DNA of 64,000 nt from Acidimicrobiaceae bacterium (GTDB lineage: Bacteria > Actinomycetota > Acidimicrobiia > Acidimicrobiales > RAAP-2), in contig PKYQ01000028.1 in the NCBI GenBank assembly GCA_003133685.1, positions 1-64,000 on the forward strand, given 5' to 3'. The notes below the pieces were generated by a model, which saw only the letters and a list, made by a program, of their open reading frames with translations, was not told the DNA's origin and searched no databases. Both the position numbers and the translations under genes were made by a program. This document shows positions 19,924 to 22,451 of the stretch, piece after piece; within the stretch, counting starts at the first letter, position 1, and every line of letters starts with the position of its first letter.

Positions 19924-20297
19924 CCGTCGATTCTGTCACCGTCCAAGCGCGCTCGCTACGTCGCTTGGGGCCGACCGAAATCGTGTCGGAGCGTGTCTAC
20001 GTATGCGCGGTCGCGCAGTGTGATTACTTTGAATTGCGCCAACTCCCATGCGTTCAATGGCGACGGTGCCACCGAGAAATGAGTGAAGAACTTTTGGTTG
20101 TCCGAGACCAATTTGTCATCGCCCTTCGCGCCGCTCAAAGAGTTCGTGGGCCAGAGCTTTCGGGCAGGTGGTGATTTTGATCTTTTTATTGTCTTGGCGT
20201 TGATGAAATGCCCTGTGCGGAGGACGTTGCGGTGACCAGCAACAACTTCTCCGCAATTTCCAGGTTCTAGACATTTTGCATTCTTAGAATGATCCCT
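19924..20297. other. Intergenic region without a confident gene
   Basis: About 370 bases, visibly richer in A/T than the flanks. On the minus strand a frame is open from 20327 to 19956 and reads LVSDNQKFFTHFSVAPSPLN, then AWELAQFKVITLRDRAYVD, which looks protein-like but has no plausible start and matches no family I know. It may be a gene remnant. The right end carries the promoter of the HD-GYP gene. Confidence 0.4.
20285..20290 (+). promoter_or_regulatory. -10 hexamer TAGAAT before HD-GYP gene
   Basis: TAGAAT ends 7 bases before the in-frame GTG 20298 and overlaps the alternative ATG 20289, which supports a leaderless GTG start. No clear -35 is visible. Confidence 0.5.
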
Positions 20298-22451
20298 GTG
20301 TCGGAACAACGTGAAGAACGGGGCCACCGGTGGTCAGCGCGCTCGCGCACGGGATTCCTCGTCTCCGTCGCGTCATTCGCCATCCCGATCGCGCTATCGG
20401 TCGTCTGCGCCTTTACGGCCTCGACACTGCTTCCACGTCCCACCTCCGGTGCGTGGCAGGTGGCGTGGTGGATCGGCGTTCTTCTCATAGCGTGGATCGC
20501 CGCCGCCGTCGGAGAACGAATCGCCCGCCCGCTCTTGCCACTGGCCAGTCTGTTAAAGATGTCGCTCCTATTTCCGGATCGGGCGCCATCGCGCTTCGCC
20601 GTTGCGTGGCGATCGGGATCAACTCGTCAACTCGACCGTTACGTCCATGGTCTCGATTCCAAACCTCATCGAGAACCCGTGACGACGGCCGTCGAGATCC
20701 TTACTCTGGTTACCGCCCTCAGCTCTCACGACAGGCGAACGCGCGGCCACTCGGAGCGCGTTCGGGCGTACACCGACCTGATCGCTGATGAACTGCGGTT
20801 ACCGCAAGCTGACCGCGATCGGCTGCGGTGGTCGGCGCTTTTGCACGACGTAGGGAAGCTGACCGTGCACGTCGATATTTTGAACAAAACCGGCAATCCC
20901 ACGGAAGCGGAGTGGGAGATAATCCGTCGCCATCCCCAAGAGGGCCAGCGATTGATTGAGCCGCTCATGGAGTGGCTCGGCGAGTGGGGACACGCGGTTG
21001 AACAACATCACGAGAATTTCGACGGTAGTGGCTACCCCTTCGGACTTTCGGGCGATCAGATCTCCCTCGGTGCGCGAATCGTCTCGGTAGCTGATGCCTT
21101 CGAGGTGATGACCGCGGCTCGTTCCTATAAGAGCCCGATATCGCCTGCCGCCGCTCGAAAGGAATTAACTCGCTGCGCCGGAACGCAGTTCGACCCCGCC
21201 ATCGTTCGCGCGTTCCTCGACATCTCGGTAGGTCGACAGCGATGGGTCATCGGACCGTTGGCGTGGCTATTCGACGTGCCAATTATCAGCCAGGTCGGCA
21301 ACCTAGGTAACGTGTTGGCCGTTGGTTCCCAGGTGGCCCTCGTCGCAGGATCGGTAACACTGGGAGCCGTTGCCGCGAGTGCCCAACTCACCGTGCATCA
21401 CCCGACCCCACCCGATCGCCCCGCGGCCGTGACCGCCGCGCTCGTAAAGCGACAACCCGAGGTAGTGACCGTGCTCTCGGAACACTCGACGGGAAGAGTG
21501 CGCGGCGATGCCACGATTACGAACGCCACGCCGGACGCTGGGGGCACCGTGACCTACTTCGTATTCAACAACGACGCGTGCGCGAGCAACGGCCTCAGTG
21601 CGACACTCGGTTCCGTCAATGTGAAGGGTGGCGAGGTCCCCACTTCACCGCTCTGGAGCTCTACAGGTCCCGCGGGTACCTACTACTTCGTCGCCGATTA
21701 CAGCGGTGACGCGAACGATAATGCTGCGAGAAGTGGCTGCAATTCGGACCCGATTACGGTCGGTCCCGGCGTCGAGGCGATCACCGTGCAACTATCGTCG
21801 AACACGGTCGCCGTCGGCGAGGACGTAAACGCCAGCGCCCTAATCGCGGCCCCTCGTTCGGGCGCCGGTGGATCGGTGAAGTACGACGTGTACAACAACG
21901 CCTCGTGCTCTGGCGGCGGTCTGGTGGCGACACTCGGTTCCGTCAATGTGAAGGGTGGCGAGGTCCCCACTTCACCGCTCTGGAGCTCCACGGGTCCCGC
22001 GGGTACCTACTACTTCGTCGCGGTCTACAGCGGAGATGCGAACCATAAATCAGCGGTGAGCGGGTGTGATAGCGCCTCGGTCATTGTCTCCTCCTCCTCC
22101 TCCTCTCCATCCGGGGTCACCACAACTCTCCCGAATAATCCTGGAACTTCAGGTCCTCAACCCACTACGTCGATAACCACACCAACGACGCCTACGACGA
22201 CCTCGTCGCCGTCGCCGTCGCCGTCGACAACCACAACGGGACCATCCACGCCTACGAAGAAACCAACCTCACCGACGACGACGCAGCCTTCAGTGACGAC
22301 GACGACACGCCCAGCGCCTCCCACACCCGCAACCACCATCCCAGCGCCTCCCACACCCGCAACCACCATCCCAGCGCCTTACAAACCGTGTAACGGATTG
22401 AGAATATGGTGTCCGGGTCACCCCGATAGAGGCCAGATCCAATTTCGATGA
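20298..22451 (+). CDS. Membrane HD-GYP phosphodiesterase with C-terminal Ig-like repeats and Thr/Pro tail
   Basis: 717 residues from GTG 20298 (ATG 20289 would overlap the -10 hexamer). Two helices (about 23-45 and 52-70) are followed by a complete HD-GYP domain: H183-D184 in LHDVGK, and HHENFDGSGYP with H237, H238 and G245-Y246-P247, the residues expected of a cyclic-di-GMP phosphodiesterase. One or two further hydrophobic segments (about 315-360) lead to two Ig-like repeats of about 109 residues, then a Ser/Thr/Pro-rich stretch (about 605-690) and a short Cys-containing end. The enzyme would lie inside and the repeats outside the cell, suggesting that surface contact or wall binding controls cyclic-di-GMP breakdown. 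Confidence 0.88.
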   Translation: MSEQREERGHRWSARSRTGFLVSVASFAIPIALSVVCAFTASTLLPRPTSGAWQVAWWIGVLLIAWIAAAVGERIARPLLPLASLLKMSLLFPDRAPSRFAVAWRSGSTRQLDRYVHGLDSKPHREPVTTAVEILTLVTALSSHDRRTRGHSERVRAYTDLIADELRLPQADRDRLRWSALLHDVGKLTVHVDILNKTGNPTEAEWEIIRRHPQEGQRLIEPLMEWLGEWGHAVEQHHENFDGSGYPFGLSGDQISLGARIVSVADAFEVMTAARSYKSPISPAAARKELTRCAGTQFDPAIVRAFLDISVGRQRWVIGPLAWLFDVPIISQVGNLGNVLAVGSQVALVAGSVTLGAVAASAQLTVHHPTPPDRPAAVTAALVKRQPEVVTVLSEHSTGRVRGDATITNATPDAGGTVTYFVFNNDACASNGLSATLGSVNVKGGEVPTSPLWSSTGPAGTYYFVADYSGDANDNAARSGCNSDPITVGPGVEAITVQLSSNTVAVGEDVNASALIAAPRSGAGGSVKYDVYNNASCSGGGLVATLGSVNVKGGEVPTSPLWSSTGPAGTYYFVAVYSGDANHKSAVSGCDSASVIVSSSSSSPSGVTTTLPNNPGTSGPQPTTSITTPTTPTTTSSPSPSPSTTTTGPSTPTKKPTSPTTTQPSVTTTTRPAPPTPATTIPAPPTPATTIPAPYKPCNGLRIWCPGHPDRGQIQFR
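21600..21694 (+). repeat. Copy 1 of a 95-base near-identical direct repeat
   Basis: This segment recurs at 21927-22021 with only two differences (within CTACAGG versus CCACGGG). It encodes the conserved core of the Ig-like repeat, while flanking parts of the two repeats have diverged. Confidence 0.95.
21927..22021 (+). repeat. Copy 2 of the 95-base direct repeat
   Basis: Second copy, offset by 327 bases (109 codons) from the first, so the reading frame is preserved. Confidence 0.95.
22311..22379 (+). repeat. 30-base tandem repeat, 2.3 copies
   Basis: Units at 22311-22340 and 22341-22370 are identical, with a 9-base partial third copy. Each encodes ten residues of the Pro/Thr/Ala-rich tail (PAPPTPATTI), so copy-number change would stay in frame. 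Confidence 0.95.

Follow-up and report, generated by a model that had tools for sequence, protein, structure and literature searches.

The window analyzed here, a 64,000-nucleotide stretch of an Acidimicrobiaceae contig (PKYQ01000028.1), carries at 20289..22451 an open reading frame for a 720-residue membrane protein of the HD-GYP type, the single match to Pfam HD_5 in its genome. The preliminary description had set this gene at 20298-22451; the end stands, but the start moves upstream, since the frame opens with an ATG at 20289 and the in-frame GTG at 20298 lies nine bases inside it. An obvious ribosome-binding site is absent at both codons, and a promoter and terminator scan was uninformative. 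The flanking genes (GNAT acetyltransferase, thiolase, acyl-CoA dehydrogenase, and luciferase-like monooxygenase) do not adjoin the closest homologs (L002-L004), so gene context gives no functional clue. From its N-terminus, the protein is built of a two-helix hairpin, an HD-GYP domain, a third hydrophobic segment, two Ig-like repeats, and a Thr/Pro-rich tail, all encoded on the forward strand.

The hairpin consists of two predicted membrane helices, at 20343..20429 (residues 19-47; KD peak 2.35 at residues 23-41; position kept across the family) and 20448..20525 (residues 54-79; KD peak 1.88 at residues 57-75), both modeled by AlphaFold2 (AF2) as helices with pLDDT of about 95. A family-specific linker with a PLLPLASLLKMSLLFPDRAPSRF-type motif follows at 20532..20597 (residues 82-103); its conservation was read from 23 homologs, in which P84, A86, L88, F95, P96, P100, and R102 are invariant, and its consensus across the family is LLPLAxLLKxSLxFPDxAPSRF. 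A Pfam scan of the protein returned no family over the hairpin or the linker. The HD-GYP domain itself (20709..21203, residues 141-305) matches Pfam HD_5 with an E value of 1e-34 (120 bits, against a cut-off of 27), and an AF2 model of residues 1-379 gives both the hairpin and the HD-GYP fold confidently, most residues of the domain having pLDDT above 90. Immediately beyond it lies a post-HD motif, SVGRQRWVIGPLAWLFDVP, at 21216..21281 (residues 310-331), recognized by its conservation in the family (consensus GRLRWxxGPLAWL; P331 invariant).

Several lines of comparison point to an intact enzyme. The metal ligands H154, H186, D187, H215, H240, H241, and D269, together with K190, are invariant in 23 homologs down to 43% identity, as is the DGxGYP signature (here DGSGYP; D245, G246, G248, Y249, and P250) in the 23 sequences, which argues that catalysis is under selection. 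Foldseek with the domain model retrieved 4r8z (E value 3e-8) as well as 9rbz and 4mcw, and a profile search against solved structures ranked V-cGAP3 (5z7c, 1e-55) ahead of PmGH (4mcw, 7e-42) and PA4781 (4r8z, 1e-36). The best of these sequence matches, 5z7c, is a 3'3'-cGAMP phosphodiesterase, and the substrate of the 720-residue protein may therefore differ from c-di-GMP. In the trinuclear HD-GYP subclass exemplified by PmGH, the third-metal ligand is a residue that we take to be a Glu four positions before the first His ligand; here that position is Arg150, which varies among the homologs and is never Glu, placing the protein outside that subclass, so that a two-metal site is expected. The HD-GYP enzyme looks intact and probably breaks down c-di-GMP.

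The link to c-di-GMP is drawn from relatives and from the genome. In L023, L059, and L061, a GGDEF domain whose GGDEF motif is intact is fused at the N-terminus, within the same open reading frame; these fusions tie the family to c-di-GMP but fall short of proof of its substrate. Bifunctional surface receptors are possible in these three cases. The organism's own genome has 14 GGDEF and 15 EAL matches alongside its one HD-GYP protein, and c-di-GMP is therefore probably made by this organism.

Behind the enzyme, the third hydrophobic segment (21312..21368, residues 342-360; KD 1.72) is the probable pass to the outside. It is Ala-rich and poorly conserved in sequence, and its helix is of low confidence in the model of residues 1-379 (pLDDT 37-59); 57 of the 60 family members compared nevertheless have a segment with KD of at least 1.4 at this position (family mean 1.64), and the spacing of the three hydrophobic segments is constant across the 60. 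The generic HD-GYP control L024 is without such segments. Positive charges are dense on the predicted inner sides and sparse after the third segment: K/R counts average 3.7 in the 20 residues preceding helix 1, 1.4 within the short loop, 5.5 in the 30 residues that follow helix 2, and, around segment 3, 3.5 in the preceding 40 residues and 1.7 in the following 40. With this positive-inside pattern, the Cys pairs in the Ig-like repeats, and the exported character of almost every attached domain, the C-terminus is placed outside the cell; both the architecture and this topology are well supported by comparison.

What would be displayed there begins with two Ig-like repeats, at 21465..21761 (Cys431 and Cys484) and 21780..22091 (Cys540 and Cys593). 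Both give Big_3_5 stretches (E value 6e-6; 26.8 and 25.1 bits) that fall under the Pfam cut-off of 35.5, which homologs L003 and L023 exceed. In an AF2 model of residues 391-612 (mean pLDDT 84.6), they form two beta-sandwiches. Compared with known structures by VIA-align, that model retrieved Ig folds, with Ig domains from many extracellular proteins. The Cys pair of each repeat is invariant, which fits an exported domain. A Thr/Pro-rich stalk follows at 22125..22382 (residues 613-698), delimited by composition and containing short tandem repeats at 22310-22369; the last 108 residues of the protein include 31 Thr and 27 Pro. The sequence ends in a short tail with two Cys (YKPCNGLRIWCPGHPD...) at 22383..22448. 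In its main lines, then, the preliminary description of the protein is borne out: an intact HD-GYP domain between membrane helices, two Ig-like repeats with a Thr/Pro-rich tail at the C-terminus, and a probable location of those repeats outside the cell, with no prediction placing them in the cytosol.

The outer part also shows signs of change. The two Ig-like repeats are 81% identical in DNA over 208 nt (21532-21739 and 21859-22066, spaced 327 nt), and their central stretches are near-identical. Repeat number changes within the family, as there are five of these repeats in L003 and in L004. The L002 protein has a two-Cys tail after a Thr/Pro stalk as well, its terminus being CRFFGDWHPGCPF. 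Elsewhere in the organism's own genome, at C1:43295-43918, a second protein (a 599-residue open frame) has two strong Big_3_5 domains and is a possible surface partner.

The family is defined by a core of about 300 residues comprising the hairpin, linker, HD-GYP domain, and post-HD motif. The same domain order recurs in about 60 homologous open reading frames and is therefore not a matter of chance. A first scan found 22 full-core homologs, all in actinobacterial contigs, while matches outside the phylum cover the HD-GYP domain only. At E <= 1e-60, the core profile matches 45 of 198 genomes sampled from the organism's order, with up to nine paralogs per genome; in the sample of the phylum, about 18 of 396 genomes have full-core matches, scoring about 370 bits or more. 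The remaining phylum matches are generic HD-GYP proteins at no more than 233 bits, mostly confined to positions ~120-305, and the scores are bimodal. Core-profile matches are absent from eight other genomes of the organism's own family (five of its own genus), which makes the distribution patchy, and a plasmid collection gave generic HD-GYP matches only, at less than 60% identity. In Ferrithrix thermotolerans, a family gene (L025, 1618-2713) is apparently split over two frames, which may reflect either decay of the copy or an error in sequencing. Taken at the level of these searches, this is a broad actinobacterial family rather than an isolated oddity, and the ectodomain differs between its members.

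The extent of that difference is considerable. Among 59 family open reading frames (a few counted twice, the same genome being present in two collections), the residues beyond the end of the domain number 156 to 1918, with a median of 297, against a median of 20 in a control set of 11 generic HD-GYP proteins of the phylum (10 of 11 with fewer than 50). The part after the third segment alone reaches ~1,850 residues. Tail domains across the family include Big_3_5, Big_9/cadherin-like, Cadherin, LTD (lamin-tail), PKD, NHL, Big_13, and pentapeptide repeats; other tails are Pro/Ser/Thr/Ala-rich sequence only. The C-terminus of L057 has pentapeptide repeats, which are atypical for an exported domain and count against reading the part as a receptor on the outside.

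The usual picture of an HD-GYP protein has the sensor preceding the enzyme. Typical HD-GYP phosphodiesterases have N-terminal regulatory domains, whereas the sensor-like part here is C-terminal. With PmGH (4mcw), PA4781 (4r8z), DvhD (9rbz), and V-cGAP3 (5z7c), the protein shares the catalytic fold, metal ligands, and GYP signature; it differs in having membrane segments on both sides of the domain, a large exported C-terminal part, and no third-metal Glu. The PASTA kinases PknB and PrkC join a cytosolic enzyme through a membrane pass to C-terminal extracellular repeats; the layout is the same here with HD-GYP replacing the kinase, except that there are two extra N-terminal helices and that the ectodomain is neither PASTA nor conserved.

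We regard as fairly probable that the protein is a receptor-type cyclic-dinucleotide phosphodiesterase, with the HD-GYP domain in the cytosol and the C-terminal ectodomain outside as putative input. The N-terminal hairpin would anchor a catalytically intact cytosolic domain, and the third membrane crossing would put the Ig-like repeats and Thr/Pro stalk within the wall or past it. The input could be binding, contact, or tension at the ectodomain, with a surface, a wall polymer, or a neighbor as the thing sensed; the signal would reach the HD-GYP domain by way of the third helix and the conserved post-HD motif, and its arrival would change c-di-GMP hydrolysis. Computation supports the domain order, the intact active site, the conservation of the family, the variability of the ectodomain, and the topology; the substrate, the role of the ectodomain as input, and its binding target are putative elements of this scheme. 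The proposal of the preliminary description, a surface sensor by which adhesion or contact with the wall would be coupled to breakdown of c-di-GMP, is plausible as a hypothesis.

Signal flow might instead run outward. In LapD, a GGDEF-EAL protein, the degenerate enzyme domains act as an inside-out c-di-GMP receptor, and the periplasmic domain precedes them and is not itself an adhesin; such receptors likewise tie a c-di-GMP domain across the membrane to surface adhesion. By this model, the HD-GYP core would read or degrade c-di-GMP and control the conformation or exposure of a surface adhesin, making the ectodomain an output. Adhesin-like ectodomains (Ig, cadherin, and CshA-like repeats) would suit such a role, as would a freely replaced tail on a kept core, which is what an effector tail should look like; yet the active site is fully conserved, unlike that of LapD-type receptors, and we consider this arrangement unlikely. 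A more doubtful proposal still is that signal peptidase cleaves the third segment as an internal signal sequence, so that the Ig/stalk part is shed and works apart from the enzyme. An AxA motif does follow the hydrophobic segment here (AASA/QL) and is present in 38 of 61 rows scanned, but AxA would be expected often by chance in such very Ala-rich stretches, a sizeable minority lacks it, and retention of the fusion in all members argues for joint function. Least credible is a cytosolic C-terminal part with segment 3 as a buried or peripheral helix: the segment's moderate mean hydrophobicity and low model confidence would allow it, against which stand the Cys pairs, the positive-inside charges, and the cadherin, LTD, NHL, and PKD partners, and we hold it very improbable.

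A Streptomyces inventory lists HdgA and HdgB as 6TM-HD-GYP proteins, with no C-terminal ectodomain (PMC6205966). These too are actinobacterial membrane HD-GYP proteins, but they have six transmembrane segments, whereas the protein here has a pair of helices ahead of the domain and a single one behind it. The term Ig-like is absent from a 2022 review of c-di-GMP sensing (PMC8846402). A search of the open-access literature (subscription journals and preprints being outside its scope) turned up no description of an HD-GYP protein with a C-terminal Ig/cadherin ectodomain, and none characterized with this order of parts. The preliminary description likewise knew of no account of this architecture; what it needs is the correction that the protein belongs to a broad family. 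As far as we have seen, the enzyme is of a known kind, while the receptor layout and the family are undescribed. The family, widespread in actinobacteria and apparently unnamed, has its sensor-like part behind the enzyme, outside the cell, and swaps it freely. For Gram-positive-type bacteria, it suggests a connection, open to test, of c-di-GMP levels with surface structures (Ig, cadherin-like, stalks), and natural chimeras are at hand for study of how signals pass across the membrane into HD-GYP.

Paralogs within one genome bring out the same division. Their cores are mostly 50-76% identical and their C-termini mostly without a BLAST match; in sequence, the core is conserved and the outer part replaced. 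It is conceivable, although we put it forward tentatively, that a fixed core is combined with diversifying ectodomains in up to nine copies per genome, with gene conversion keeping the cores uniform, so that many surface inputs would lower one messenger. In the tandem pair L092 (G027:C24), ~960 bp of DNA are identical, spanning codons ~48 to ~368; the block opens ahead of helix 2, closes shortly beyond segment 3, and is sharply bounded on both sides, with ~45% identity outside. The pattern resembles a recent conversion event or cassette exchange of the core, in a pair close enough to a contig end for an assembly fault to be possible. The N-terminal tails and ectodomains of these adjacent genes are unrelated. 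In the tandem pairs L007 (6001-6972 and 9338-10396), L081, and L091, the cores are 62-76% identical and the outer parts different or partly related.
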